Source of the DNA: Flavobacteriaceae bacterium
Lineage (GTDB): Bacteria > Bacteroidota > Bacteroidia > Flavobacteriales > Weeksellaceae
Direction: 5' to 3'
DNA length: 49,081 nucleotides
NCBI GenBank assembly: GCA_031276535.1
Contig: JAISMV010000008.1
Coordinates: 1 to 49,081 of the forward strand
Part shown: positions 34,518-49,081 of the stretch, in pieces
How positions within the stretch are numbered: the first letter of the stretch is position 1
Layout: every line of letters begins with the position of its first letter
Program-made: the position numbers and the translations under genes
The notes under the pieces: model-generated
The model's input: the letters and a program-made list of their open reading frames with translations, nothing else
What the model was told of the DNA's origin: nothing
Databases searched by the model: none

Positions 34518-34549
34518 GAAAAACAAGTAAAAATGTTGAGTTTAAATTA

Positions 34550-34557
34550 CAAACGTA
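34550..34557 (-). promoter_or_regulatory. -7 element (TACGTTTG) for porZ-recO
   Basis: TACGTTTG on the minus strand is a full match and predicts a leader of about 26 nt before the ATG at 34517. No -33 TTG within the usual distance; the upstream DNA is extremely AT-rich. Confidence 0.5.
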
Positions 34558-34669
34558 AAAATACTATTATTATTAAAAATATTTTTTACTTTTAACAAAA
34601 AAATATAAAAAAGAAATATTTTTAGTTATTTACAATTTGATGGATAATTCAAGGAATTAATTAGAATTA

Positions 34670-35677
34670 ATGGCAGATAATAGAATAAAATGGATTGATT
34701 TTATAAAGGGATCTACTATTTTTACAGTGATGTTAGGGCATGTAATTTCCGGAATGATTCGATCCGGTTATTTCTCTGATTATGATTTTTTTTTGGAAAC
34801 ATTTTATGTTAAATTCCTTCGAAGCTTTAGTATGCCTGTCTTTTTTATGATTTCAGGCATTCTCTACTCAAAAAAAAGATATACACCCATTAAAGACATA
34901 AAAGTATCTATAGTAAAAAAGGGGATAGCTTTAGGAGTGCCTTATTTGTTCTTTTCGACAGGATATTGGATGATTAAATATATAATGGGGGATAATGTCA
35001 GAACTCCGGTTGATTGGCAGGATTTGTTGTTGATCTTTATTAAACCCATTGGGTATTTATGGTTTCTATATGTTCTTTTTTTTCTGTATTTATTTATAGA
35101 ACTTTTGGATTATGTTTTTAAAAATAATTTTATTGTTTTTTTTATTGTAACGATTCTTGCTGTAATAAGATGGTTTTATTCCCCGGATGTTTTTATTATA
35201 GAAAGAATTATGCAAATGGGAATTTATTTTTATATAGGAAAAATTGTTGTTAATAAAATGGATGTTTTTAATAATTATTTATTTACTGCTTTGTGTGTTA
35301 TAATATTCTTTTCATTACAAATCATTAATGTGTTTGATGAAATTAGTGTTGAAAATGGAGGATTTAATTTTATACTAGGGTGCAGTGCTGCATTTGCAAT
35401 TATTTCTTTGTCTAGGAAAATGAATACTAAAAACCGCTTTTATGTTTATTTTTCTCAAATGGGGCAGATAACACTACCTATTTACCTGATTCACCCCGCC
35501 ATCACTTCTGCTGTAAGGATAGCATTATTATACATAGGGCTGCAAAATGTATGGATACATCTTATTTTAGGGGTGATAATATCTTGGTCTCTATCTATTT
35601 ACATATACAAATTTGCTGAAAAGTATAGATGGTTAGATATGATTTTCTATCCGGTTAAGTATAAGAAAATTAGTTAA
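34670..35677 (+). CDS. Integral-membrane acyltransferase-3 family protein
   Basis: A protein of 335 residues with about ten hydrophobic segments. The N-terminus has the family landmarks IKWIDFIKGSTIFTVMLGHV (Asp and, after the helix, the catalytic His of LGH), and SMPVFFMISGILY. GYLWFLYVLFFLYLFIELL is the fourth to fifth helix region. LPIYLIHPAI near residue 280 is also typical. The family O-acetylates surface sugars such as lipopolysaccharide or capsule. It stands between two operons, with its own start 152 bp after porZ's ATG on the other strand. Base composition is much lower in G+C than neighbours (11 of 60 in 35101-35160), which could reflect membrane codons or foreign origin. Confidence 0.9.
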   Translation: MADNRIKWIDFIKGSTIFTVMLGHVISGMIRSGYFSDYDFFLETFYVKFLRSFSMPVFFMISGILYSKKRYTPIKDIKVSIVKKGIALGVPYLFFSTGYWMIKYIMGDNVRTPVDWQDLLLIFIKPIGYLWFLYVLFFLYLFIELLDYVFKNNFIVFFIVTILAVIRWFYSPDVFIIERIMQMGIYFYIGKIVVNKMDVFNNYLFTALCVIIFFSLQIINVFDEISVENGGFNFILGCSAAFAIISLSRKMNTKNRFYVYFSQMGQITLPIYLIHPAITSAVRIALLYIGLQNVWIHLILGVIISWSLSIYIYKFAEKYRWLDMIFYPVKYKKIS

Positions 35678-35711
35678 TGCAGACGTAACATGAAAAAAAG
35701 AAAGAAGTTTT

Positions 35712-35741
35712 TTGTTAAATAAAAAAAAATATATAAATTTG
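35712..35741 (+). promoter_or_regulatory. Full Bacteroidota promoter of rplM-rpsI
   Basis: TTG at 35712-35714 (within TTTTTTG) and TAAATTTG at 35734-35741 are separated by 19 bp, the consensus spacing of the group. The start is predicted near 35748, giving a 41-nt leader that contains a short CCC/GGGG hairpin at about 35745-35757. This is the best promoter in the window. Confidence 0.75.
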
Positions 35742-35788
35742 CAACCCTATTTCGGGGAATTATTTTTAATAAAGGTAAAAGAATAAAA

Positions 35789-36244
35789 GTGAATACACTA
35801 AGTTACAAAACCATATCAGCAAACAAAGAAACTGCCAATAAAGAGTGGTTACTTGTAGATGCAGACGGACAGAAATTAGGTCGATTAGCTTCCAAAATAG
35901 CTAAGATTTTGCGTGGGAAACATAAAACAAATTTCACCCCTCATGCAGATTGTGGAGATAACATTGTAGTTATCAATGCAGGAAAAGTGATTTTATCAGG
36001 AGATAAAACAGAACAAAAAGAGTATGTAAGACATACGGGGTATCCGGGAGGTCAAAAATTTGCAAGTGTTGCCGACGTTAAAGCAAAAGATCCTAAAAGA
36101 TTATTGGAATACGCGGTAAAAGGTATGCTTCCTAAAAATAAATTAGGAAGAAAAGTATTTAAAAACTTATACCTGTACGAAGGCACAGAGCACGAACAAG
36201 TGGCTCAACAACCCAAAACATTAGACATTAACGCTTTCATTTAA
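35789..36244 (+). CDS. rplM: 50S ribosomal protein L13
   Basis: A protein of 151 residues with a GTG start at 35789; the next ATG would cut into the conserved N-terminus. Landmarks: KEWLLVDADGQKLGRLASK, ILRGKHKTNFTPH, DNIVVINAGKV, RHTGYPGGQKF and GMLPKNKLGRKVF. L13 binds 23S rRNA early in 50S assembly. It is followed 8 bp later by rpsI, the conserved pair in bacteria. The strong promoter at 35712-35741 drives both; the short hairpin in its leader could mediate autoregulation, but that is inference. Confidence 0.97.
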   Translation: MNTLSYKTISANKETANKEWLLVDADGQKLGRLASKIAKILRGKHKTNFTPHADCGDNIVVINAGKVILSGDKTEQKEYVRHTGYPGGQKFASVADVKAKDPKRLLEYAVKGMLPKNKLGRKVFKNLYLYEGTEHEQVAQQPKTLDINAFI

Positions 36245-36252
36245 AAAATATA

Positions 36253-36639
36253 ATGGCAGTTACACATAAAATAGGAAGAAGAAAAACATCCGTAGCAAGA
36301 ATATATCTTTCCGAAGGTACCGGAGAAGTTACTATCAACGGAAGAGATTATAAAGAATACTTTCCAACAGAGGTATTACAATATAAGATCACTCAGCCTT
36401 TCCAATTGACACAAACCCAAGGACAATACAACCTTAAAGTAAATGTATATGGAGGAGGAATCACCGGGCAGGCAGAAGCAATCCGGTTGGCTATTTCCAG
36501 AGCTTTGGTTGCAATTGCGGAAGAAAACAAACCCGTGTTGAAATCAGAAGGACTTCTAACCCGGGATCCAAGAATGGTGGAAAGAAAGAAATACGGTCAG
36601 AAAAAAGCACGTAAGAGATTCCAATTCTCCAAACGGTAA
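36253..36639 (+). CDS. rpsI: 30S ribosomal protein S9
   Basis: A protein of 128 residues: IGRRKTSVARIYLSEGTG at the N-terminus, VYGGGITGQAEAIRLAISRA in the middle and KYGQKKARKRFQFSKR at the end, the basic tail reaching the P-site tRNA. It is co-transcribed with rplM, 8 bp apart. A weak hairpin at 36659 may end the unit before rpsB. Confidence 0.97.
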   Translation: MAVTHKIGRRKTSVARIYLSEGTGEVTINGRDYKEYFPTEVLQYKITQPFQLTQTQGQYNLKVNVYGGGITGQAEAIRLAISRALVAIAEENKPVLKSEGLLTRDPRMVERKKYGQKKARKRFQFSKR

Positions 36640-36658
36640 TCTTTCCGAAATAAAAAAT

Positions 36659-36687
36659 ATAACCACTCTGTTTCAGGTAGTGGTTAT
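36659..36687 (+). terminator. Weak terminator or attenuator between rpsI and rpsB
   Basis: ATAACCACT at 36659-36667 pairs with AGTGGTTAT at 36679-36687, with an 11-nt loop, followed by a few T. Nine base pairs, AT-rich; partial read-through into rpsB-tsf is likely. Confidence 0.6.
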
Positions 36688-36802
36688 TTTGATTTTTTAA
36701 ATAAATTAATTAATATAAACTTGCCGTTTAGTTTAGCATCCAAACTCAGAACCATTTTTGAAGTTGATTGCACAAACTGCGGAACGTAAACTAAAAAAAG
36801 AC

Positions 36803-37606
36803 ATGGCAAAAGTAGATGTAAAAGACCTCTTAAATGCAGGAGTGCATTTCGGTCACCTTACCAGAAAATGGAATCCACACATGGCTCCCTATATCTTTAT
36901 GGAGAAAAATGGAATCCACATCATTGACTTACACAAAACATCCGTAAAATTAGACGAAGCATCCAATGCTTTAGGCAAAATTTCAGCTTCAGGAAGAAAA
37001 ATCCTTTTTGTCGCTACAAAAAAGCAGGCTAAGGATATTGTGGCAAAACACGCAGAATCCGTAAACATGCCGTACATCACGGAAAGATGGCCGGGAGGTA
37101 TGTTAACTAACTTTGTAACTATCAGAAAGGCAGTAAAAAAGATGAATTCCATTGACAGGATGAAAAAAGATGGAACTTTTGAAACTCTGTCTAAAAAAGA
37201 AAAATTGCAGGTAGATCGTCAAAGAGCTAAATTAGAAAAGAATTTAGGTTCTATTGCCGATATGACTCGTTTGCCTTCAGCCATATTCGTAGTGGATATC
37301 TTACGGGAACACATTGCAGTAACAGAAGCCAAAAAATTAGGAATTCCTGTTTTTGCGATCGTAGACACCAACTCAGACCCGCAATTAGTGGACTATCCAA
37401 TACCGGGAAATGACGACGCTTCTAAATCCATAGACCTGATACTGGAAACAATAACCAATTCCATTAAAGAGGGACTAAGCGTAAGAAAAGCGGAAAAAGC
37501 GGAAAAATCCAAAGCTAAAGAAGATTCAAACGAAGAAGATATTCTGGTAGAAGAAGTGGAGGAAGAAATACTATCCGAAGACGCCGGAGAAGAAGTGGAA
37601 GAATAA
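36803..37606 (+). CDS. rpsB: 30S ribosomal protein S2
   Basis: A protein of 267 residues. The ATG at 36803 opens the conserved start (MAKVDVKDLLNAGVHFGH); an ATG at 36758 would add 15 unconserved residues. Landmarks: RKWNPHMAPYIF, GIHIIDLHKT, FVATKKQAKDIV, ERWPGGMLTNF, ADMTRLPSAIFVVD and FAIVDTNSDPQLVDYPIPGNDDA. The last 40 residues form an acidic tail rich in Glu, longer than in E. coli S2. It is followed 31 bp later by tsf, the universal pair. No clear -7 box was found in the 110 bp before it. Confidence 0.97.
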   Translation: MAKVDVKDLLNAGVHFGHLTRKWNPHMAPYIFMEKNGIHIIDLHKTSVKLDEASNALGKISASGRKILFVATKKQAKDIVAKHAESVNMPYITERWPGGMLTNFVTIRKAVKKMNSIDRMKKDGTFETLSKKEKLQVDRQRAKLEKNLGSIADMTRLPSAIFVVDILREHIAVTEAKKLGIPVFAIVDTNSDPQLVDYPIPGNDDASKSIDLILETITNSIKEGLSVRKAEKAEKSKAKEDSNEEDILVEEVEEEILSEDAGEEVEE

Positions 37607-37637
37607 AAATATAGTTTAATAAAAAATCAAGATTAAA

Positions 37638-38456
37638 ATGTCATATTTACCAAAAGCCGCTGATGTAGCAAAATTAAGAAATGCTACCGGAGCAGGAATG
37701 ATGGACTCAAAAAAAGCCTTGATCGAAGCAGAAGGAGATTTCGATAAAGCTATTGATTTATTAAGAAAAAAAGGACAAAAAGTTGCCGCTAACCGTGCAG
37801 ACAGAGAAAGTCATGAAGGAGCAGTAATTGCAGCCGTAAATGAAACCAATACCAAAGCCGCTATAATTAAACTGAACTGTGAAACGGATTTTGTTGCTAA
37901 AAATGAAGATTTTATAAAATTAGCAAAAGAATTTGCCGCTTTAGCATTAAAATTCAACACAAAAGAAGAATTATTAGCAGCAGACTTCCATGGTCTTCCG
38001 GTAAGTGAAAAATTAATCGAGCAAACCGGAGTTATAGGAGAGAAAATTGAAATATCCGAATTTAAAACATTGGAAGCTCCTTTTGTAGGTTCTTACATCC
38101 ATGCAGGAAATAAAATAGCTTCAGCAGTAGGAATATCAAAAACTTTTGAGAAAGCTCCGGAAGTTGCAAAAAATATTTCCATGCAGGTAGCAGCCATGAA
38201 CCCGATAGCATTAGATGAATCTCAGGTAGATGCTTCCGTTATCGAAAAAGAATTGGAAATAGCAAAAGAACAATTACGCCAGGAAGGAAAACCGGAAGCA
38301 ATGTTGGAAAACATAGCAAAAGGAAAATTAAATAAATTCTTTAAAGATAATACTTTGGTGAAACAGGATTATATCATGGGAGAAAAAACTTCGGTTGAAG
38401 ACTACGTGAAATCTGTGGATGCGGAAGTTAAAATAACAGGATTTATAAGGATATAG
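37638..38456 (+). CDS. tsf: Elongation factor Ts
   Basis: A protein of 272 residues that recycles GDP-bound EF-Tu. The N-terminal UBA-like domain has KLRNATGAGMMDSKKALIEA and DLLRKKGQKVAA. The family signature LNCETDFVAKNEDF is near residue 80 (the TDFV segment inserts in EF-Tu). GSYIHAGNKIASAVGI and NISMQVAAMNPIAL follow, and the end has VKQDYIMGEKTSVEDYVKS. It lies after rpsB and before a terminator 21 bp downstream. Confidence 0.97.
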   Translation: MSYLPKAADVAKLRNATGAGMMDSKKALIEAEGDFDKAIDLLRKKGQKVAANRADRESHEGAVIAAVNETNTKAAIIKLNCETDFVAKNEDFIKLAKEFAALALKFNTKEELLAADFHGLPVSEKLIEQTGVIGEKIEISEFKTLEAPFVGSYIHAGNKIASAVGISKTFEKAPEVAKNISMQVAAMNPIALDESQVDASVIEKELEIAKEQLRQEGKPEAMLENIAKGKLNKFFKDNTLVKQDYIMGEKTSVEDYVKSVDAEVKITGFIRI

Positions 38457-38476
38457 AATAGGGTTAATTTAAAATG

Positions 38477-38513
38477 AAAAAAAGGATGTCTCAAAAAACG
38501 AGCATCCTTTTTT
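38477..38513 (+). terminator. Rho-independent terminator of rpsB-tsf
   Basis: AAAAAAGGATG (38478-38488) pairs with CATCCTTTTTT (38503-38513), with a 14-nt loop and a T-run. It follows tsf by about 20 bp. Confidence 0.85.
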
Positions 38514-38667
38514 GCTTTTTAGGAACTGTATTTGAAATGAGTTTTCAGGTATTCGATTCTCAGTGAATGTCCCCTTTGGTATGCTTTTTTGCTTTCTTGC
38601 CACACAGGTTTTTCAGAGAAAATACATTGTCTTCTTGGGGTTTATATTTACAGACGTCTTTAAAGAA

Positions 38668-40527
38668 TCAAACTATTAAAATAGGTATGTGGGCTTTATG
38701 TCTGAGCTTGTTTGCCGTAACGCCAAATATAAAATCCGCCAAACCTTTATGACCGTGTTTCGCCATTAGTAAAACCTCAATCTCATTTTCTTTAATTAAT
38801 TCCGGAAGACTTACAGAAGGATTTCCAAATCCTAATTTTGTTTCAATATGAGTATATCCCTCTTTATGAAGAAGCGTTTTATAGTCATTGAGTCTTTCCT
38901 GATCAAACTTCACCTCATAATCGTCAGCCAGTTCCCCATAGTATTTGGCAGAAGCGCTTTCCGTTACATGAAATAATACAATGACGGAATTTTTTTCGGC
39001 AAGAAGATTCACATAGTTTAATACCCGTTGGTCTCCATCGCTGAAATCCAGTGCTATTCCTACGGTTTTGAACGGTTGTATCTTCGTTATATTTTTTTGT
39101 ACCGGTAAATTGTGAATATCGAAATGCAGCTTTTTTGTTTTTATAACCCAGGGGTACAACACAATACTGATTAAAAATAACAGCAAAGCCAGAGAAATTC
39201 CTCCCAGAAGTATCTTAACTCCCATTGTTACAGCCGGATTATGAAATAGGGCGATTTCCTCATCATAAATTAATTTGATGTTTAAAATTACAATTAAAGA
39301 GCAGACTATCCAGGATAGGATCTTCACAGGTAATTTAATGACAAACTCACCCATTTTTTCCGCATCACTTACAAAATGAATAAGAGGAATGATTGCGAAC
39401 CCCAACTGCATGCTTAGAAGCACCTGACTGAAAATAAGCATCTCATCCACAGAACTGTCTCCGAAAATACTAATAATGATCACGGACGGAATAATGGCAA
39501 GCATACGGGTTATTAATCTCCTCAAAGCCGGATTCATCCGGAAATGAAGATACCCCTCCATTACAATTTGTCCGGCAAGAGTTCCGGTAATGGTAGAACT
39601 TTGTCCCGCAGCGATCAGAGCGATAGCAAAAAGAAAGGGAGCCAGAGAACCCAGTATATTGGACAACATTTTGTAAGCATCATGCAATCCTGCGATCTCA
39701 TACAACCCCACTTTGTGAAACGTAGATGCGGCGAGGATCAATATGGCGGCATTTATGAAGAATGCCATATTGAGAGCAATAAGACTGTCAAAAAAATTGT
39801 ATTTAATAGCATTCTTAATAGACTGAAAATCCTTTTTTATTTTCCTTGTCTGCACTAATGCGGAATGTAAATACAGATTGTGAGGCATTACAGTAGCCCC
39901 TATGATACCAATCGCTATATAAAGAGCCTCATTATTGGGTATTGTAGGTTTTAATCCTTTAGAAACCTCGATTAAATCAGGTTTTGCTAAAAACATTTCT
40001 ATAAGAAAACAACTTCCGATGATCCCAACCAGAGTAATGATAAACGCTTCCATTTTTCGTATGCCAAACCTTTGCAGCAGTAATAACAACAGAGTGTCCA
40101 GAGCCGCGATCCATACACCCCAGATCAGATCCAGCCCGAAGAGGAGCTGTAACCCGATAGCCATTCCCAATACCTCGGCTAAATCGGTTGCAGCAATGGC
40201 GATTTCAGCAAAAACATACAAAATATAGATCATCCACCTAGGATAATATTCCCGATTGGTCTGAGCCAGGTCTAATCCCCGTACAATCCCCAACCGCGCA
40301 CTGAGAGATTGAAGAAGCAAGGCGATAATGTTACTCATCAACAATACCCAGATAAGAGCATAGCCAAACTTGCTGCCTCCCGCAATGTCCGTTGCCCAGT
40401 TCCCGGGATCCAGATAGCCTACGGCAACTAAATACGCAGGCCCGAAGAAAGCAAAAACCCTTCTCCATTTTTTAGAATTGTCGGTACGTACAGACTCATG
40501 TACTTCTTGTAGAGATTTCTTACTCAA
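38668..40527 (-). CDS. Nramp metal-ion transporter fused to a universal stress protein domain
   Basis: A protein of 619 residues with a TTG start at 40527; a stop lies two codons upstream and no ATG is near. Residues of about 20-450 are Nramp (MntH-type proton-coupled Mn2+/Fe2+ importer) with about eleven helices: DPGN at 40-43 in helix 1 and MPHN at 214-217 in helix 6, the two metal-binding motifs, plus AEIAIAATDLAEVLG. Residues of about 485-619 form a UspA domain (VGIALDFSDGDQRVLNYV) with the nucleotide loop in the pattern GHKG-9 residues-GVT near the end. The soluble domain would face the cytoplasm and may gate transport by ATP. Fusions of this type are known in Bacteroidota. Confidence 0.93.
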   Translation of the reverse strand: MSKKSLQEVHESVRTDNSKKWRRVFAFFGPAYLVAVGYLDPGNWATDIAGGSKFGYALIWVLLMSNIIALLLQSLSARLGIVRGLDLAQTNREYYPRWMIYILYVFAEIAIAATDLAEVLGMAIGLQLLFGLDLIWGVWIAALDTLLLLLLQRFGIRKMEAFIITLVGIIGSCFLIEMFLAKPDLIEVSKGLKPTIPNNEALYIAIGIIGATVMPHNLYLHSALVQTRKIKKDFQSIKNAIKYNFFDSLIALNMAFFINAAILILAASTFHKVGLYEIAGLHDAYKMLSNILGSLAPFLFAIALIAAGQSSTITGTLAGQIVMEGYLHFRMNPALRRLITRMLAIIPSVIIISIFGDSSVDEMLIFSQVLLSMQLGFAIIPLIHFVSDAEKMGEFVIKLPVKILSWIVCSLIVILNIKLIYDEEIALFHNPAVTMGVKILLGGISLALLLFLISIVLYPWVIKTKKLHFDIHNLPVQKNITKIQPFKTVGIALDFSDGDQRVLNYVNLLAEKNSVIVLFHVTESASAKYYGELADDYEVKFDQERLNDYKTLLHKEGYTHIETKLGFGNPSVSLPELIKENEIEVLLMAKHGHKGLADFIFGVTANKLRHKAHIPILIV

Positions 40528-40549
40528 TTGTTAGATCTTTCTAATTCTG

Positions 40550-40557
40550 CAAAAATA
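40550..40557 (-). promoter_or_regulatory. -7 element (TATTTTTG) for the Nramp-UspA gene
   Basis: TATTTTTG on the minus strand lies 23 bp upstream of the TTG start, predicting a leader of about 16 nt. It supports the TTG as the true start. No -33 box at 19 bp. Confidence 0.45.
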
Positions 40558-40586
40558 AGCGAAATTATCTAATAAAAAATAATAAA

Positions 40587-40910
40587 TCAATCACTTTCCG
40601 GTCTCCATATATGATCTTTAAAGTTGACAACTCGGTTGTTTTTTATTTCTATCCCCTCATTTTCAAGCAATTCCCGCATTAAAGAAGGGGTGAAAAAGTG
40701 ATCTTTCCCCGTAAGCATCCCATTTCGGTTTACTACCCGGTGGGCAGGTATCCCCTCCAAAGCATGAGCCGCCTTCATAGCATACCCCACTATTCGTGCA
40801 GAATTTCTTGTTCCTAAATATTCCGCAATAATACCATAAGTAGTTACTTTTCCACAAGGAATTTTTCGTACGATTTGGTAAACTTTTTCATAAAAATTAT
40901 CATTTTCCAT
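40587..40910 (-). CDS. Alkyltransferase-like (ATL) protein, MGMT family without catalytic Cys
   Basis: A protein of 107 residues, the size of ATL proteins, covering only the C-terminal DNA-binding domain of O6-alkylguanine-DNA alkyltransferase. Landmarks: IPCGKVTTYGIIAEYLG, SARIVGYAMKAA, then IPAHRVVNRNGMLTG and the LLENEGIEI segment. In active MGMT the loop reads PCHRV; here it is PAHRV near residues 55-59, so the alkyl-acceptor Cys is Ala. ATL proteins bind O6-alkylguanine and recruit nucleotide excision repair. The Arg of GYAM...R-type recognition helix (SARIVG) is kept. It is a single gene 59 bp upstream of the Nramp gene's start, on the same strand in the order ATL then nothing: it ends before reaching it. 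Confidence 0.9.
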   Translation of the reverse strand: MENDNFYEKVYQIVRKIPCGKVTTYGIIAEYLGTRNSARIVGYAMKAAHALEGIPAHRVVNRNGMLTGKDHFFTPSLMRELLENEGIEIKNNRVVNFKDHIWRPESD

Positions 40911-41121
40911 AAATTGGTAAAAAAAATAAGACCTTTTTTATCATAAAAATAAACAAAAAACTTGATAAAGTGTAAACAAAACACTATAAATTATATGATA
41001 TGTAAAAAAACAATAAAGATGTATTTACCTGAAAATGAATTCATAACACCCCAATTTCTTTTTTTTTTCAATTTTTTTCAATGTTTATTATACATCTATA
41101 AAATATTTTTTATATTAGTAG

Positions 41122-41260
41122 CAGGTGAAGTTAAGACTTCAAACATAAACCAAAAAATGAGAAGTTAGATATTTTACTTTCTGGTAGTATCTAAAGTTTT
41201 GAGTTAATTGAAAGTAAAATAAAGAAATGATTCTAAATGATTTAGGATCATTTCTTTTTT
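41122..41260 (+). ncRNA. Structured leader or small RNA with terminator, upstream of the fused synthetase
   Basis: Three hairpins follow each other on the plus strand. A small one is GAAGT/ACTTC at about 41127-41140. The second is a perfect 11-bp stem, ATTTTACTTTC at 41171-41181 and GAAAGTAAAAT at 41210-41220. Directly after it comes a long hairpin, AAAGAAATGAT at 41221-41231 with ATCATTTCTTT at 41247-41257, its stem extended inside by a CTAA/TTAG pair, followed by six T. The flanking genes diverge, so no protein-coding transcript needs a terminator here. It is either an attenuator for the gene at 41337 or the 3' end of a small RNA. No TAnnTTTG box was found upstream. A 68-codon frame at 40962-41168 is not convincing. 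The rest of the 40911-41336 gap is AT-rich and blank. Confidence 0.5.
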
Positions 41261-41336
41261 GAAAAGCCGTTTTTATTAAATTGAGATAATACTATTATAC
41301 GATAAGTTGCAAAATAAAATTAAAACCACAAAAGAA

Positions 41337-44300
41337 ATGAGTACGTATCAAAAAGAATTTCAGAGAAGTATTTCGGATCCTGATACATTTTGGGGAGAAC
41401 AGGCAAAGAATATAGGATGGTTTAAAGAACCGTCCGTTGTTCATTCCGTAGGTCAAAATGGATTAGACGAATGGTTCAAAGATGGTAAGGTGAATATGTC
41501 TTATCTGTGTATAGATAAACATATCGAAGACGGATATGGAGACGACACCGCCATTATTTACGATTCTCCGGTCACGCAAACAAAATCCAAAATCACGTAC
41601 AACCAGTTAAAACACAAAGTTGAAAGACTTGCAGGAGGACTGAAGAGATTAGGGGTGCAAAAAGGAGATACCGTGATTATCTACATGCCTATGATTCCTC
41701 AGACCATTATGGCAATGATGGCCTGCGCCCGGATTGGAGCCATCCATTCTGTTGTTTTCGGAGGATTTGCCCCTAAAGAATTAGCTACAAGGATTGACGA
41801 CTGTAAACCCAAGGTAATTATCTCCTCAACATCAGGAGTAGAAGTAAACAGGGTTATTCCTTACAAACCCATGGTAGACGAAGCAATTTCCCTGTCCGAG
41901 CACAAACCCGGATATGTAATATTATATAACAGAAGATTAGGAGCCGTTTGCCCCGAACAAGATTACGATGTAGACTTCAATACCCTGATCAATCTTTCAG
42001 AGCCTGCCCCTTACGTAGAAGTGGAATCCACACATCCGTTGTTTATTCTCTATACGTCAGGAACCACAGGAAAACCCAAAGGGGTGGTACACGATACCGG
42101 AGGATACGCCGTAGCCCTGAAATATACCATGTCCAGTATTTACGACAGTACACCGGGAGACGTATTCTGGGCAGCTTCCGATTTCGGATGGATCGTAGGA
42201 CATAGTTATATCGTATATGCGCCTATGATAAATAGAAATGCAACTATTGTATACGAAGGAAAACCCGTAAAAACCCCGGATGCAGGAGCTTTCTGGAGAG
42301 CCATAGAAGAATATCAGGTAAAGGTATTTTTCTCCGCTCCGACAGCCTTCAGGGTAATCAGAAAAGAAGATCCTAACGGAGAATTAATAAAACAAAGAGA
42401 CCTCAGCTGCCTTAAATACCTGTTTGTAGCAGGAGAAAGATGCGATGCCGCAACCTTGGAATGGCTGCAGGAACAATTTCAACTGCCGGTGGTTGACCAC
42501 TGGTGGCAGACGGAAACAGCCTGGGCTATTATGGGTAATTTCATGGGGTATGACGGAGGATTCCCTATCAAACCGGGATCTGCAGGAAAACCGGTACCCG
42601 GATACGACGTTCAGATCTTAGGAAACGACGGAGAACTGTTAGGAGCCGATGAAGAAGGAGCAGCGCTTATTAAATTGCCGTTGCCTCCGGGAACGCTCAC
42701 CACATTATGGAATGCGGAAGAAAGATACAAAGAAGGATATTTAACGCAATATCCCGGATATTACTTTACCGGAGACGGTATTTACAAAGATTCCGACGGC
42801 TACTACTTTATCACCGGACGGTTAGACGATGTAATTAATGTAGCAGGACACAGACTTTCCACTTCCGAGATGGAAGAAGTTATAGCCAAAAATCCGTTGG
42901 TGGCGGAATGTGCCGCTATGGGGATTGAAGATACTATTAAAGGACAGGTGCCTTTCGCCGTAATACTAACTAAAGATTCTGCCGTGGAAGTAGAACCCTC
43001 CAAACTGGAGCAGGAATTAAAACAAAGTGTACGAAAAGAAATTGGTGCCATAGCTTCCCTGAGCCGTGTCGTTCAGTTGAAAAGATTGCCTAAGACCCGT
43101 TCAGGAAAAGTTTTGCGCAGATTGATCCGAAACATAGCAGACGGAAAAGAATTTGCAATTCCTTCTACTATCGAAGACCCGACCGTAATTGATGAAATCG
43201 TTCAAGTGTTTAAAGAAGAGGGAATTGGAGTATACGGACTCGGAGGCGGAAAAGCAGAAAAGAATATTGACGACTTAGTAGTAACAACTCATGCAAAATA
43301 TGAAAAGTTATACAGCAAAAGTATAGAAAACCCTAACGAATTCTGGGAAGAAATCGCTAAAACCTTTTTATGGAAAAAACCATGGGATACGATTTCCGAA
43401 TCCGACTTTGATAAAGCACAATTTAAATGGTTCCTGGGCGGAAAACTAAACATAACGGAAAACTGTCTGGACAGACATTTGGAAAAAAATGGAGATAAAG
43501 CAGCCATCCTGTTTGAGCCGAATGAACCCAATGAACCCAACAGGGAAATTACCTATAAAGACCTGTACAAAGAAGTATGTAAGCTGGCAAATGTATTAAA
43601 ATCGAAAGGTATTCGGAAAGGAGACAGGGTGTGTATTTACATGCCGATGATTCCCGAACTGGAAATAAGCATTTTGGCTTGTGCAAGAATAGGAGCGGTT
43701 CATACGGTGGTATTTGCCGGATATTCATCCAAAGCATTAGCTTACAGGATCAAGGATTCCGAAGCAAAACTGGTAATTACAGCCGACGGTTCCAGCCGGG
43801 GCGCTAAATTTACAGATTTGAAATCCATCGTAGATGAAGCTTTGGAGAATGCTCCTTCCGTAGAATCCGTGATCATATACGAAAGAACCAAACACGGAGT
43901 ATCCCTAAAACAAGGAAGAGACGAGCTTTGGGATGTTTTAGTGAAAGATGCGGATATACATTGCCCGGCAGAAGAAATGGACTCCGAAGATACTTTGTTT
44001 ATCATTTATAGTTCCGAATCTTCGGGAACGCCGAAAGGAGTTGTTCATACTTGTGGAGGTTACATGGTATATGCCGCGTATACATTCAAAAATGTCTTTC
44101 AGATAGGAAGAGAAGATGTTTATTTCTGTACCGCCGACATAGGCTGGCTGGCAGGGCACACATACGGAGTATATGCACCGTTGCTGACAGGGACATCCTT
44201 CGTTCTGTTTGAAGGAGCGCTTTCTTATCCGGACTACGGACGTTTCTGGAATATTGTGGAAAAATATAAAGTAACCCATTTTTACACCGCGCCGACAGCT

Positions 44301-45164
44301 CTACGTACATTGGAAACCCAGCCTCAGCATTTTGTGGAAAATCACGATCTAAGCAGTTTGAAAGTGCTGGGATCCGTAGGAGAACCTTTAAACGACGAAG
44401 TATGGCATTGGTATAGCGAAAAAATAGGAAAATCCAACTGTCCTGTTGTAGATACCTGGTATCAGACAGAAGCAGGAGGAATTATGATCTCCGCCTTGGC
44501 AGGGGTAACTCCGATAAAAGCCACATACGCAACCAAACCGTTCTTGGGAATAAATGTATGTCTGGTAGATGCAGAAGGAAACGAAATAACCGAAGAACAC
44601 GGAGAAGGAAGTTTATGTATTAAAAATCCATGGCCGGGAATGGCAAGAACCATTTACGGAAACCATGAAAAATACAAAGAACTGTATTTCTCTTCCTATG
44701 CAGGTAAATATTTCTCAGGAGATGTAGCTATAAGAGATATTGAAGGCAATTACAAAATTATCGGACGTTTAGACGATACCATTGTCGTATCAGACCACAG
44801 ATTGTCCACATATCCGATTGAAATTGTGATTGATGAACACATTCTGGTAACAGAAACAGCAATTGTAGGGTATCCTCATGAAATTAAAGGAAACGCTCTT
44901 TATGCATTTGTCGTTACCTATGAAAAACCGACGAACGAAGAAGTTACACGAAAGGAAATACAACAACACGTGGAAAGAACGATCGGAGAGATCCTCAAAC
45001 CGGATAAGATTCAGTTTGTTTCAGGATTGCCGAGAACCCGAAACGGTAAAATAATGAAAGGAGTTCTGCAAAAGATCGCCTCCGGAGATGTTGCCGATCT
45101 AGGGGATATATCTGATATTATTAATCTGGAAGTGCTGGATGAAATAATTGAAGGCAGATTATAG
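41337..45164 (+). CDS. Tandem fusion of two acyl-CoA synthetases (PrpE-like + Acs-like)
   Basis: One frame of 1275 residues from the ATG at 41337 (a TTG at 41307 is less likely). Residues 1-630 form a full PrpE-type propionyl/acetyl-CoA synthetase: P-loop YTSGTTGKPKG at 239-249, WWQTE at 389-393, GRLDDVINVAGHR, and the catalytic Lys591 in LPKTRSGKVLRR. A linker of about 25 residues (GIGVYGLGGGKAEKN) joins a second complete Acs-type module, 655-1275. There the P-loop is YSSESSGTPKG at 891-901, the pocket reads WYQTE at 1041-1045, VSGHR is VSDHR, and Lys1238 is kept in TRNGKIMK. The reaction is acid + ATP + CoA to acyl-CoA + AMP + PPi. The second module keeps the catalytic Lys but has altered ATP and CoA loops, so it may have changed specificity or be structural. 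Monocistronic, with a structured leader and a terminator. Confidence 0.92.
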   Translation: MSTYQKEFQRSISDPDTFWGEQAKNIGWFKEPSVVHSVGQNGLDEWFKDGKVNMSYLCIDKHIEDGYGDDTAIIYDSPVTQTKSKITYNQLKHKVERLAGGLKRLGVQKGDTVIIYMPMIPQTIMAMMACARIGAIHSVVFGGFAPKELATRIDDCKPKVIISSTSGVEVNRVIPYKPMVDEAISLSEHKPGYVILYNRRLGAVCPEQDYDVDFNTLINLSEPAPYVEVESTHPLFILYTSGTTGKPKGVVHDTGGYAVALKYTMSSIYDSTPGDVFWAASDFGWIVGHSYIVYAPMINRNATIVYEGKPVKTPDAGAFWRAIEEYQVKVFFSAPTAFRVIRKEDPNGELIKQRDLSCLKYLFVAGERCDAATLEWLQEQFQLPVVDHWWQTETAWAIMGNFMGYDGGFPIKPGSAGKPVPGYDVQILGNDGELLGADEEGAALIKLPLPPGTLTTLWNAEERYKEGYLTQYPGYYFTGDGIYKDSDGYYFITGRLDDVINVAGHRLSTSEMEEVIAKNPLVAECAAMGIEDTIKGQVPFAVILTKDSAVEVEPSKLEQELKQSVRKEIGAIASLSRVVQLKRLPKTRSGKVLRRLIRNIADGKEFAIPSTIEDPTVIDEIVQVFKEEGIGVYGLGGGKAEKNIDDLVVTTHAKYEKLYSKSIENPNEFWEEIAKTFLWKKPWDTISESDFDKAQFKWFLGGKLNITENCLDRHLEKNGDKAAILFEPNEPNEPNREITYKDLYKEVCKLANVLKSKGIRKGDRVCIYMPMIPELEISILACARIGAVHTVVFAGYSSKALAYRIKDSEAKLVITADGSSRGAKFTDLKSIVDEALENAPSVESVIIYERTKHGVSLKQGRDELWDVLVKDADIHCPAEEMDSEDTLFIIYSSESSGTPKGVVHTCGGYMVYAAYTFKNVFQIGREDVYFCTADIGWLAGHTYGVYAPLLTGTSFVLFEGALSYPDYGRFWNIVEKYKVTHFYTAPTALRTLETQPQHFVENHDLSSLKVLGSVGEPLNDEVWHWYSEKIGKSNCPVVDTWYQTEAGGIMISALAGVTPIKATYATKPFLGINVCLVDAEGNEITEEHGEGSLCIKNPWPGMARTIYGNHEKYKELYFSSYAGKYFSGDVAIRDIEGNYKIIGRLDDTIVVSDHRLSTYPIEIVIDEHILVTETAIVGYPHEIKGNALYAFVVTYEKPTNEEVTRKEIQQHVERTIGEILKPDKIQFVSGLPRTRNGKIMKGVLQKIASGDVADLGDISDIINLEVLDEIIEGRL

Positions 45165-45186
45165 AAATCACAGAAGTTTTTATACA

Positions 45187-45226
45187 GAAGAAAGGCGCCC
45201 GAATTTTTCGGACGCCTTTCTTCTTA
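45187..45226 (+). terminator. Strong terminator of the fused synthetase gene
   Basis: GAAGAAAGGCG at 45187-45197 pairs with CGCCTTTCTTC at 45213-45223. After one mismatch (45198/45212) the stem continues with CCGAA/TTCGG, leaving a 3-nt loop. It is followed by TT. The gene's stop is 23 bp upstream. It may serve argH from the other side too. Confidence 0.9.
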
Positions 45227-45255
45227 TAATTATTAGTCACACAGACTCTCTAAGC

Positions 45256-45328
45256 CCATTGCAAAAGTAAAAGTTTAAAACAAATCATAAAAGCCTGATT
45301 AATATGTTAAATTTTGCAATGGTTTTTT
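45256..45328 (+). repeat. Perfect 11-bp inverted repeat with T-run in the synthetase-argH gap
   Basis: CCATTGCAAAA at 45256-45266 is the exact complement of TTTTGCAATGG at 45312-45322, which is followed by six T (45323-45328). The loop is 45 nt. A terminator for the synthetase already lies upstream, so this could be a second terminator or a small RNA. Nothing else is seen in the 45227-45403 gap except an 8-bp repeat (CTTCTGAA/TTCAGAAG, 45383-45410) over the argH stop. Confidence 0.45.
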
Positions 45329-45403
45329 ATAGCTGTACTAAATCCGGAGGGGACAAGTCAGGAAAAATTTCCGTAGCAGGGTCTTCTGAATTTATAAACC
45401 GCT

Positions 45404-46684
45404 TCAGAAGCATTCTTCCATTTTTTCTTTAATTTCTTTCAGACAAAGATTATTGATACTTCCCTCATGGGTGTGGGTGGTTTTTCCGGGAGACCGGAAT
45501 GTTCCTTTTTCCACCTGTTCCCCGATGATCTTATACGCATCCCGAAAGGGAACCCCTTGGGCAACCAGTTCATTCAAGGCATCTACGGTAAACAGGTAAT
45601 CATATTTTTTATCTTCCAGTATGTTCTCCCTTACCCGAATGTCTTTAACGGAATAATGAGCCATATCCAGACAGGCTTTCAGGTTTTGAACGGCAGGAAT
45701 CAACCCTTCTTTTAACAATTGCAAATCCCGGTGGTATCCGCTGGGCAGGTTGTTGGTGATCAATGTCAGCTCGTACGGAAGAGCCTGTATTTTATTACAT
45801 TTTCCCCGTATTAACTCAAAAACATCCGGATTTTTCTTATGAGGCATAATGCTGGATCCGGTGGTGAGATGAGAAGGCAGGGAAAGGAAATTAAAATTCT
45901 GGCTCATATACAAGGTGACATCCATTGCCAGCTTGGATAAGGTTCCGGACAAGCTGCTCAGGGCAAAAGCGGTGCTTTTTTCAGATTTTCCACGGCTCAT
46001 CTGGGCAGCAACGGAGTTATATTTTAAAGTTTTAAAGCCCAGTTTCCGGGTGGTATACGTGCGGTTTATCGGGAAGGAACTCCCATATCCGGCAGCAGAA
46101 CCCAAAGGGTTTTGGTCAACTATTTTTAAAGCGGCATTCAGCATAATTACATCATCAATCAGGCTTTCGGCATAAGCGGAAAACCACAGTCCGAAAGAGG
46201 AAGGCATGGCAATCTGAAAATGAGTATAACCGGGCAGCAACACATTCTTATACTTTTCAGCCAAATCCATCAAAAGATCAAACAGCTGCCGGGTCTGATC
46301 CTTGATCTGAGATAATTCCTCTTTTAGATATAAATTCATATCCACTAAGATCTGGTCGTTGCGGGAACGTGCCGTATGTATCTTTTTTCCTGCGTCTCCG
46401 GTCTTTTGGGTCAGTAAAAACTCTATTTTGGAATGTACATCCTCAAAATCGTTTTCAATGCTGAAATTTCCTTTTTCTATTTCTGTTAAGATTTCATTCA
46501 GGGCAGACACCAAATCCGTTTTTTCCTGTTCGGTGAGCAACCCGGCATTATGCAGCATGTCAGCCTGAGCTATGGAGCCTAGTACATCGTATCGGGCCAG
46601 AATTACGTCGAGTTCCCGGTCATTTCCTACAGTGAACCGGTCTATTTGCTTATCGGAAGGTATGCCTTTTTCCCAGAGTTTCAT
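45404..46684 (-). CDS. argH: Argininosuccinate lyase
   Basis: A protein of 426 residues, slightly shorter than the usual 455-460. It cleaves argininosuccinate to arginine and fumarate, the last step of arginine synthesis. Landmarks: LWEKGIPSDKQIDRFTVGND at the start, VHSKIEFLLTQKTGDAGKKI, the TARSRNDQ motif near residue 105, LPGYTHFQIAMPSSFG (catalytic His), PLGSAAGYGSSFPI and the fumarase-family signature GSSIMPHKKNP near 275. The C-terminus is compatible with a full fold. It is the third gene of the argB-M20-argH unit, starting 9 bp after the deacetylase. No terminator with a T-run was found on its strand beyond the shared hairpin at 45187. Confidence 0.96.
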   Translation of the reverse strand: MKLWEKGIPSDKQIDRFTVGNDRELDVILARYDVLGSIAQADMLHNAGLLTEQEKTDLVSALNEILTEIEKGNFSIENDFEDVHSKIEFLLTQKTGDAGKKIHTARSRNDQILVDMNLYLKEELSQIKDQTRQLFDLLMDLAEKYKNVLLPGYTHFQIAMPSSFGLWFSAYAESLIDDVIMLNAALKIVDQNPLGSAAGYGSSFPINRTYTTRKLGFKTLKYNSVAAQMSRGKSEKSTAFALSSLSGTLSKLAMDVTLYMSQNFNFLSLPSHLTTGSSIMPHKKNPDVFELIRGKCNKIQALPYELTLITNNLPSGYHRDLQLLKEGLIPAVQNLKACLDMAHYSVKDIRVRENILEDKKYDYLFTVDALNELVAQGVPFRDAYKIIGEQVEKGTFRSPGKTTHTHEGSINNLCLKEIKEKMEECF

Positions 46685-46693
46685 TTTGATTGT

Positions 46694-47776
46694 TTAAGAT
46701 TTTAGTATGGTTTTTTTGAGTAATTCAATATATAACGGAATGGCGTCTATGACCTCCTGTTTATAAATAAATTCATCAGCCGTATGAGAGCGTAGGGAAT
46801 CTCCGGGACCCATCTTCAGCGACTGGCAATACAGAACCGCCTGATCGGAAATGGTAGGAGAGCCGTAAGTGGTTCTTCCCAGTTCAATTCCCGCCAGCAC
46901 CAAAGGATGTTCTTTCGGGATGGAAGAAGATTTCAGGTGCAGAGATCTGGGAGTAATGGTAACTTTGTCCGAAGACACGGACTTGCGGATCATGGCGTAT
47001 ATTTCCTCATTGGTATAGCGATCATTCACCCGGATGTCCACGACCAGTTTGCATTCATCAGGAACCAGATTATGTTGTTGTCCTGCATTGATCTGGGTAA
47101 CGGTCATTTTTACGGCTCCCAGCGTTTCGGAAATTTTATCAAAAGTATGGGTTTTAAACCATTCTATGACTTTCAGGGAATTATAAATGGCATTGTCCGG
47201 ATTGTTATGTGCGGCGTGGCTGGCAGTTCCCTTTACGGAAATGTCCAGTACCAGCAATCCCCGTTCTGCAATAGCCAGATTCATCAGGGTGGGTTCTCCC
47301 ACAATGGCGCAGTCCAGTTTGGGCAGATGTTGTAAAATGCTGTTCAGACCTTTTTTTCCGCTGTTTTCTTCTTCGGCGGTAGCCGCCATGATCAAATTAT
47401 ACGTCAGGTCTTTATTGTCGTAATAGTAGGTAAAGGCGGCTAATAACGAAACCAGACACCCTCCGGCATCGTTTGACCCCAGTCCGTAGATCTTCCCTTC
47501 TTTTTCTATGGTTTGAAAGGGGTCGTTGGTGTATCCTTTGTTCGGGAAGACCGTATCCTGATGCGAATTTAGCAGCAGGGTGGGTTTGGATTCATCAAAG
47601 TATTTATTGACCGCCCAAATGTTATTATTTTCCCGCTTAAAAGGAATCTGATGATGAGTAAACCAAGCTTCTATCAATAATGAGGTATTTTCTTCTTCTC
47701 CTGAAAAGGAAGGGGTCTCTATCAGGTTGTGAAGTAAAATCAAGGCTTTATCTGTCAGTTTTGCTATTGTTTGCAT
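46694..47776 (-). CDS. M20-family deacylase of arginine synthesis (ArgE-like)
   Basis: A protein of 360 residues of the M20 metallopeptidase family. Zinc-site motifs: LLNSHQDTVFP (His and Asp, residues about 71-81), YGLGSNDAGGC (bridging Asp), TAEEENSGKKG (Glu-Glu) and VGEPTLMNLAIAERG. A dimerisation domain (DISVKGTASHAAH) follows. The last zinc His lies in DSLRSHTADEFI. Members of this subgroup remove an acetyl or succinyl group from ornithine or citrulline. In Bacteroidota the pathway often uses N-acyl-citrulline as the substrate, made by a special carbamoyltransferase, so deacylation of acylcitrulline is likely. The position between argB and argH supports the arginine role; the acyl group cannot be read. 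It starts 3 bp after argB. Confidence 0.92.
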   Translation of the reverse strand: MQTIAKLTDKALILLHNLIETPSFSGEEENTSLLIEAWFTHHQIPFKRENNNIWAVNKYFDESKPTLLLNSHQDTVFPNKGYTNDPFQTIEKEGKIYGLGSNDAGGCLVSLLAAFTYYYDNKDLTYNLIMAATAEEENSGKKGLNSILQHLPKLDCAIVGEPTLMNLAIAERGLLVLDISVKGTASHAAHNNPDNAIYNSLKVIEWFKTHTFDKISETLGAVKMTVTQINAGQQHNLVPDECKLVVDIRVNDRYTNEEIYAMIRKSVSSDKVTITPRSLHLKSSSIPKEHPLVLAGIELGRTTYGSPTISDQAVLYCQSLKMGPGDSLRSHTADEFIYKQEVIDAIPLYIELLKKTILKS

Positions 47777-47779
47777 AAG

Positions 47780-48562
47780 TTACATGGAAATATGGGTATG
47801 GAGAACCTTCGGGTTTGCAATTATTTCAGGATTTGCTATCCTGATCTCCTTAACTCCCTGTTGGAGCGCTTGAAAACAATTTTCAAGCTTGGGCAGCATC
47901 CCGGAGTGAATAACATTTTTTTCTTTTAACTCTTGGTACGAAGCAAGGGTTAATTCTTCGATTACACTGTCTTCGTTATGAATATCCGTTAAAACTCCCT
48001 TTTTTTCGAAACAATAGATCAGGGTAATGTCAAAGAGGGGGGAAAGTCCTACAGCCAGCGACTGGGCAACGGTATCCGCATTGGTATTTAACAGCTGTCC
48101 TTTTTTATCGTGGGTAATGGCGCAAAAAACAGGAGTGGCTCCGGTTTCCAGAAGGCTTTTTATCCAATCGGCGTTAATGCCGGTTATATCTCCTACAAAA
48201 CCGTAATCAACGGAACCGGTTTCCCGTTTTTTGGATAAAATGCTGTTTCCGTCAGCCCCTGTCAGTCCGATAGCCTGGGTATCGAATTTCTGCAGCAGGG
48301 CTACAATCTTTTTATTGCACAGTCCGGCATACGTCATCACGGCAACTTCGAGCATTTCTTTATCGGTTACTCTTCTTCCATCGACCATAACAGTTTCTAT
48401 TCCCAGTTTTCCGGCTAAGCGGGTGGCTTCTTTTCCTCCTCCGTGAACCAGAATTTTGAACCCTTCCATTTGAGAGAAATCCTGTAAAAACCGGTCAAGA
48501 ATTTCCGGGGTATCGATCACATTCCCGCCGATTTTAATTATAGTAAGTTTTTCTTTGCTCAT
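47780..48562 (-). CDS. argB: N-acylglutamate kinase (acetylglutamate kinase)
   Basis: A protein of 260 residues. The ATG at 48562 is chosen (MSKEKLTIIKIGGNVIDTP, split at the loop); a TTG three codons upstream overlaps the promoter box. Amino-acid kinase landmarks: IIKIGGNV (phosphate loop), ILVHGGGKEATRL, GLTGADGNSIL, LNTNADTVAQSLAV and VIHSGMLPKLENC. The enzyme phosphorylates the gamma-carboxyl of N-acetyl- or, in some Bacteroidota, N-succinylglutamate. First gene of the arginine unit. The promoter box lies so close that the mRNA may be nearly leaderless. argC, argD and the carbamoyltransferase gene are not in the window. A decayed gene lies upstream in the same direction. Confidence 0.94.
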   Translation of the reverse strand: MSKEKLTIIKIGGNVIDTPEILDRFLQDFSQMEGFKILVHGGGKEATRLAGKLGIETVMVDGRRVTDKEMLEVAVMTYAGLCNKKIVALLQKFDTQAIGLTGADGNSILSKKRETGSVDYGFVGDITGINADWIKSLLETGATPVFCAITHDKKGQLLNTNADTVAQSLAVGLSPLFDITLIYCFEKKGVLTDIHNEDSVIEELTLASYQELKEKNVIHSGMLPKLENCFQALQQGVKEIRIANPEIIANPKVLHTHISM

Positions 48563-48568
48563 TGTGTA

Positions 48569-48576
48569 CAAAGGTA
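48569..48576 (-). promoter_or_regulatory. -7 element (TACCTTTG) for the argB operon
   Basis: TACCTTTG on the minus strand ends only 6 bp before the argB ATG. With the usual 6-7 bp from box to start site, transcription would begin at or next to the A of ATG. No -33 TTG in the AT-rich sequence upstream. A second promoter further up is possible. Confidence 0.4.
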
Positions 48577-48598
48577 TAAAATATTTTTCTCCTCTTTT

Positions 48599-48786
48599 TT
48601 ATTGTTTAAAGAATTCCTCTACATAGTCTTTGCCCATGGTTTGAATAATAATTGAACTGATATTTTTAGGATCTTTAAGTTTTGTAATTTAATTTCCGGC
48701 ACAGTTTGATCAACAGTCAACGCTTTATTTTTTAGACGCACAAGGGAGTATTCTTTCTACTTTGTAATTCCTTTCACCCCCGGTAT
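48599..48786 (-). pseudogene. Decayed C-terminal remnant of an unidentified gene
   Basis: On the minus strand one frame ends at 48599 with DPKNISSIIIQTMGKDYVEEFF-type residues, protein-like in composition, but it has a stop about 30 codons upstream. The neighbouring frame continues the coding look with KALTVDQTVPEIKLQNLK (about 48729-48676). A further frame shift before it gives VERILPCASK. The three parts could be joined by two small frameshifts. The 5' side is cut by the MITE-like repeat at 48790. The remnant ends 37 bp before argB in the same direction. I do not recognise the family. It could also be chance coding. Confidence 0.35.
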
Positions 48787-48789
48787 TTA

Positions 48790-48982
48790 GAGCCTGTTTA
48801 AATTTTATTCAAATATTTATTTTTAAGTTCTAATTATATTTTGCATTCTTTTTAAGCTCTTTTGAGCGTCTTTTTCACTTTTTCTTTTTGATTTAGCCCG
48901 CTAAATCTTCAAATAAAAAGCAAAAAAATCCATCTCAAAAATAGCAATAAAAAAATAATCGCAATAAAATTTAAACAGGCTC
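48790..48982. mobile_element. MITE-like repeat, copy 2 (193 bp)
   Basis: GAGCCTGTTTAAATTTTATT at 48790-48809 is the exact inverse of 48963-48982, a perfect 20-bp terminal repeat. TTA flanks both ends (48787-48789 and 48983-48985), a plausible 3-bp target duplication. The interior is about 95% identical by eye to copy 1 at 17374, in opposite orientation, and has the same GATTTAGC/GCTAAATC palindrome (about 48890-48907). No gene inside. A 3-bp duplication of TNA form and the GAGCCTGTTT-like ends recall IS5-family elements; this is inference. Together with the remnant and promoter it accounts for most of the 48572-48998 gap. Confidence 0.85.
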
Positions 48983-48998
48983 TTAAATTCGAAAAAAT

Positions 48999-49081
48999 AT
49001 GAAAAAACAAACTTTGGCTAACTTCATCGCTGTATTTATCGGAATTTATTTTATAGTTCGTGCGTACTCTTGGTACACCGA
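48999..49081 (+). CDS. Start of a small membrane-protein gene, cut by window edge
   Basis: An ATG at 48999 opens a frame to the end of the window (27 codons). It begins with KKQTLANF and a hydrophobic run IAVFIGIYFIVRAYSW, which looks like a signal anchor. It starts 16 bp after the MITE-like repeat, so its promoter may lie in or beyond the insertion. No family can be named from this much. Confidence 0.5.
   Translation, partial: MKKQTLANFIAVFIGIYFIVRAYSWYT

Follow-up and report, generated by a model that had tools for sequence, protein, structure and literature searches.

In the flavobacterial genome analyzed here, a single gene encodes a PrpE-like and an Acs-like acyl-CoA synthetase on one chain, which raises the question of whether both halves are working enzymes and, if not, what has become of the altered one. 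The window, i.e. the whole stretch of DNA analyzed (49,081 nucleotides of contig JAISMV010000008.1), had been described in an earlier note, made from the sequence alone, as coding for either a two-headed enzyme or an active PrpE half with a regulatory or re-specialized second half. The gene in the window is referred to below as copy A.

Frame and layout of the fused gene

Copy A is one uninterrupted frame of 1275 amino acids on the forward strand (41337-45164, no internal stops), starting at ATG 41337 or, alternatively, at TTG 41307, with the stop codon ending at 45164. The Pfam families ACAS_N, AMP-binding and AMP-binding_C matched two stretches each, and this doubled architecture, together with the frame call, bore out the earlier claim of two synthetase modules in one open frame. 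Profile matches of module 1 extended to approximately residue 626, and those of module 2 began at residues 643-655 depending on the profile; the resulting linker is approximately 16-28 residues long, where about 25 had been proposed before. The best-scoring solved relatives were PrpE 5gxd over residues 3-626 and the Acs of S. enterica over residues 643-1273. The features discussed below are as follows.

41337..45164, + strand: copy A, fused PrpE-Acs gene, 1275 aa plus stop; frame also uninterrupted in L006 and L007
41337..43214, + strand: module 1, PrpE-like, residues 1-626; P-loop, Asp480, Arg495, Gly504 and Lys591 all present
43215..43280, + strand: linker, residues 627-648 as set here from match boundaries, the 3' edge uncertain by several residues
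43281..45161, + strand: module 2 (residues 649-1275), similar to Acs; active site altered, with changes in 17 of the 162 invariant columns
44007..44039, + strand: P-loop of module 2, residues 891-901; Glu894 (44016-44018) replaces an invariant Gly
44460..44462, + strand: Tyr1042 codon, at the position of acyl-pocket Trp414
44793..44795, + strand: Asp1153 codon, at the position of Gly524

The earlier note had named a sequencing error hiding a stop between the modules as a possible refutation. Because the same open frame occurs in two further genomes (87% and 79% identity), such an error in copy A is very unlikely, and a hidden stop or frame error was discarded on the strength of this recurrence.

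Occurrence of the fusion among relatives

When overlapping samples were combined, the uninterrupted fusion was found at 14 loci in 12 distinct flavobacterial genomes: this genus contributed five of its nine genomes, the genera coded g18 and g54 three and two, and the families f13 and f2 one apiece. Counting the genome of the window each time, fused frames were present in 8 of 60 near relatives and 5 of 246 members of the order, as well as in at least 8 of 296 members of the family, at least 2 of 395 of the class and at least 3 of 395 of the phylum; the whole copy A protein was the query, and these last three figures are restricted to matches of E 1e-290 or lower and would thus miss weaker fusions. 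The fusion is therefore a recurrent trait of several flavobacterial genera rather than an isolated oddity. An already described family, which the earlier note had also envisaged, was not encountered: no PrpE-Acs fusion was met among the best literature matches, most subscription journals lying outside the coverage.

In many relatives, and generally in the adjacent prpE-acs pairs of Flavobacteriales, prpE and acs are neighbours arranged in the order seen in copy A and frequently share a reading frame, but stop codons keep them apart as two separate frames. At L011, L012, L036-L041 and L083-L103 the joined prpE/acs match occupied one frame with one to five stops, a short step from fusion. Apparent further fusions in G033, G136, G208 and G213 were left uncounted, since the fetched sequences consisted of two frames separated by stops.

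Grouping of the fused rows as a single clade was rejected for module 2 (p-AU 6e-6) but not, at the 0.05 level, for module 1 (p-AU 0.061), so that a single origin of all fused genes is rejected on module 2 only. As the fused rows do not form one clade for module 2, the neighbouring pair probably fused more than once, and two or more fusions, or else a subsequent split, are likely although not certain.

Active-site changes in copies A and B

A second fused gene, copy B, was found in the genome of the window (G000, at C79:19-3801) and is 55% identical to copy A. Changes in both copies were counted over invariant columns, i.e. those identical across all background rows and the reference (85 rows for module 1, 56 rows for module 2); the background comprised all extracted modules not belonging to A or B and, for each of the two modules, one solved reference, with a few genomes represented twice and most rows from Bacteroidota. 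In all three A proteins, 5 of 127 columns were changed in module 1 and 17 of 162 in module 2 (two of the 17, G319A and K604R, being common to B), whereas in all B members the changes amounted to 45 of 127 in module 1 and 2 of 162 in module 2. The difference between copies was significant for each module (Fisher p = 9e-11 for module 1 and 5e-4 for module 2), while the difference between modules was strong within B (p = 2e-16) and represented a weak contrast within A (p = 0.044). At the sequence level, then, the two paralogues are each impaired in a different domain, clearly in the case of B and less so in the case of A.

The changes in module 1 of copy B included replacement of the catalytic lysine by Ser, Asn or Glu, of the ribose-binding Asp by Gly or Ala, of the hinge Asp by Gly, of Arg515 by Ser or Asn and of the P-loop Lys by Arg. 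Judged by these residues, the module is a plain pseudoenzyme and the PrpE half of copy B is almost certainly inactive; its Acs half looks intact, and the active site there is normal.

Module 1 of copy A had the NCBIfam PrpE family PRK10524 as its best family, although its score (716.2 bits) was under the cut-off of 955, and it barely exceeded the cut-off of the Acs subfamily PRK00174 (659.8 vs. 657). In the module 1 tree it grouped among flavobacterial PrpE rows, and its active-site set was that of 5gxd at the compared positions, except for Ile instead of Val at position 310. The PrpE half of copy A thus looks intact; its differences from PrpE are the score below the family cut-off and the fusion at its C-terminus.

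Module 2 of copy A scored above the whole-protein cut-off of NCBIfam Acs TIGR02188 (846.6 vs. 724.95 bits) and shares with Acs (S. enterica 1pg4 and 2p2f) its fold, its length and most of its catalytic residues. Unlike Acs, it is fused behind a PrpE module and carries Gly266Glu, Trp414Tyr/Phe and Gly524Asp (S. enterica numbering), at three positions where the 56 background Acs rows show no variation. Glu and Asp were present in all three A proteins, and the Trp414 position held Tyr in L001 and L006 and Phe in L007. In addition, Ser replaced Thr264 and Thr268, and three of the four acyl-pocket positions differed together from the other Acs rows (310 Leu, 311 Ala, 414 Tyr/Phe); several of the 17 changes are conservative. 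The equivalents of Lys609, Asp500, Arg515 and Glu417 (K1238, D1129, R1144 and E1045), as well as that of D517 and the P-loop Lys, were retained, and because of this the module may still adenylate something. With its altered site, the Acs half of copy A is probably weak or inactive.

The residues K591, K1238, Y1042, E894 and D1153 had all been placed correctly in the earlier note, but its reading of Thr for Lys in the P-loop of module 2 as an oddity did not hold: Thr (L010, L034, L035) or Gln (L008) also stands there in fused homologues whose module 2 is otherwise normal, so that Thr represents ordinary variation and was no longer taken to indicate damage. At the positions of Acs Asn521 and Arg526, most flavobacterial Acs rows have Ile and Asn (VSGHN); the latter position in module 2 of copy A is Arg in two of the three proteins and Lys in the third.

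The assignment of Acs residues to the AMP, pocket and CoA sites is presumed here from known Acs structures. We further equate the conserved tunnel glycine of related enzymes with Gly524 of Acs, and take Gly409 of 4-chlorobenzoate CoA ligase to be its equivalent. In PMC10455477 and PMC6122825, Trp414 is supported as an acyl-pocket residue and a conserved tunnel glycine is described in related enzymes. Replacement of Gly409 by Leu in 4-chlorobenzoate CoA ligase impaired the thioester step alone, according to PMC6122825, and PMC10455477 describes Gly459 to Ala in Macs as having little effect, with a kcat of 0.41 compared to 2.15.

Probable duplication and genomic setting

Within the genus, copy A was carried by G000, G004 and G005 and copy B by G000, G005, G006 and G001; neither was found in G002, G003, G007 and G008. 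Copies A and B were sisters both in the module 2 tree (support 100/99; 31 of 62 extracted modules used) and in the module 1 tree (96/80; 34 of 91 modules used), where the long B branch could aid the join. The stems of copy B measured 1.98 changes per site for module 1 vs. 0.10 for module 2, and those of copy A 0.34 and 0.35. Between G000 and G005, identity was 87% for the A genes and 88% for the B genes, as expected if both had descended with the genomes.

In the window, copy A lies between the Nramp and methyltransferase genes on one side and argH on the other, and in G005 between a NUDIX gene and Nramp. The Nramp gene, the methyltransferase-like stretch and kin of the G005 NUDIX gene occur together without copy A in G006 and G007. 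Copy A may also have been acquired by transfer from a sister lineage outside the sampled genomes. The Nramp gene of the window (38668-40527, - strand) encodes a metal transporter and a universal stress protein (Usp) domain on one chain, with similar genes in G005, G006 and G007. The short frame next to it (40587-40910, - strand, 107 aa) matches a 6-O-methylguanine methyltransferase DNA-binding domain and is likewise encoded in G006 and G007, at the site that lacks copy A. No RNA family reached the gathering score at 34000-49081. Copy B adjoins an aspartokinase-like gene in G006, G001 and G005 (families determined for one of the three); this neighbour was not found on the short contig C79 of the genome of the window.

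Selection and predicted folds

Values of dN/dS (NG86) were 0.03-0.06 for module 1 of copy A, 0.06 for module 2 of copy A (one pair), 0.07-0.12 for module 1 of copy B and 0.03-0.09 for module 2 of copy B; dS approached or exceeded saturation and no value was obtained for several pairs, all computed values lying below 0.12. Given these low values, both spent halves, i.e. module 2 of A and module 1 of B, seem to be maintained. Based on identities, the spent half of copy B showed approximately 1.6 to 2.4 times the amino acid change of its partner half. The full fold was kept in AlphaFold2 models of module 2 of copy A (mean pLDDT 80.9; first-ranked match Acs 5jrh) and module 1 of copy B (mean pLDDT 82.3; first-ranked match PrpE 5gxd); such models speak to fold and not to activity, and the changed positions of module 2 fall within or close to loops of lower confidence.

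Association with the propionyl-CoA pathway

Methylmalonyl-CoA mutase (PF01642) and epimerase (TIGR03081, above cut-off) were found in G000, G004 and G005, exactly the carriers of copy A, and in none of the six other genomes of the genus; one weak epimerase-like match in G003 was below cut-off, and G001 and G006, which carry B only, have neither enzyme. The association was significant over the nine genomes (Fisher p = 0.012, uncorrected for kinship), but as these genomes are related it counts for few independent events. The co-occurrence fits a role of copy A as propionate activator and of copy B as acetate activator.

Acetate kinase was present in eight of the nine genomes. In the remaining one, G004, neither acetate kinase nor copy B (at E 1e-10) was found and A was the only copy, so that acetate activation there would come from module 2 of A, from another enzyme or from a gene missing from the assembly. 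The argH of G004 (L060, L129) was 56% identical to that of the window, compared to 80-86% for the other seven genomes of the genus; G004 may be a distant member of the genus or the carrier of a different argH.

Interpretation of the fused pair

Copies A and B are best explained, with a probability of about 0.62, as descendants of a duplicated bifunctional PrpE-Acs fusion whose activities were partitioned between them, the spent halves being kept under purifying selection. Points against this reading are the catalytic residues retained in module 2 of A, the weak contrast within A, the A-only set of G004 and the small number of independent events among nine related genomes. Neighbouring prpE and acs genes would have fused in an ancestor of the genus; the bifunctional gene would have been duplicated into A and B, a step supported by the trees; and the two activities would have been divided between the copies, this order of events being our reconstruction. 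In copy A, the PrpE-type half would feed propionyl-CoA into the methylmalonyl-CoA route, as its residues and the co-occurrence with the pathway suggest. In copy B, the Acs half would work normally and the PrpE half, having lost key residues, would no longer adenylate. With the acetate half of A looking damaged and the propionate half of B looking dead, the two jobs appear to be split between the copies. Since the spent halves remain in frame and under purifying selection, they probably still matter to the working half, be it for its folding, its assembly or its control. More tentatively, they could be obligatory pseudo-synthetase partners on the same chain, serving assembly or the sensing of substrate or energy, each working head then needing its dead or altered twin, and A and B may co-assemble into an acetate/propionate pair under the control of pseudoenzyme halves.

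Of the readings offered in the earlier note, the one in which the PrpE half is active and the second half altered agrees with the sequence, whereas two working heads are less likely for copy A. One version of the latter is that module 2 has been re-specialized, its altered pocket activating another acid, which would make copy A a working enzyme with a new second substrate. The preserved catalytic Lys, Asp, Glu and Arg, the joint shift of three of the four pocket positions, the dN/dS of 0.06 (NG86, from the one computable pair) and the predicted Acs-type fold (mean pLDDT 80.9) are all in line with it, yet it has to accommodate a Glu at P-loop Gly266 and an Asp at Gly524 in all three A proteins, and we consider it rather unlikely. 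A plain fused activator of propionate and acetate, both halves working as their families do and the odd residues being tolerated, appears improbable: module 2 exceeds the NCBIfam Acs cut-off (846.6 vs. 724.95) and A is the sole copy found in G004, but at Gly266, Trp414 and Gly524 all three A proteins differ from the residue that every one of the 56 background rows keeps, and the active site in the Acs half of copy B is normal. As for an error of assembly or annotation, or gene decay, G000, G004 and G005 are represented by fragmented assemblies (152 and about 230 contigs); nevertheless, the same frame recurs in three genomes for A and in four for B, one of the genes lies on a contig of 3.29 Mb, and dN/dS is low, which makes this explanation highly improbable.

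Parallels and significance

The best parallel for the proposed partition between A and B would be that of Rel with RelA/SpoT, the synthetase/hydrolase enzymes of ppGpp. According to PMC3153485, a bifunctional two-domain ancestor was duplicated; RelA still carries a hydrolase domain that is inactive and sits on a long branch of the tree for that domain, while the synthetase activity of SpoT is weak and has been lost in some species, leaving a hydrolase only. Similarly, A and B would derive from a duplicated bifunctional enzyme with opposite domains impaired, known here from sequence, and module 1 of B has a long branch. Unlike in the Rel case, the halves of A and B are homologous synthetases for different acids, and module 2 of A is altered rather than plainly dead.

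The fusion itself is real and recurrent, and what appears to be new is a duplicated fused pair with reciprocal active-site change. Such a pair would offer a natural experiment on the division of work in a fused enzyme once it has been duplicated, with two versions of one protein in which opposite halves are spent; intact fused and unfused relatives serve as references, and the presence of a pathway goes with one of the copies. The family label "acetate-CoA ligase" would mask which acid each copy activates.
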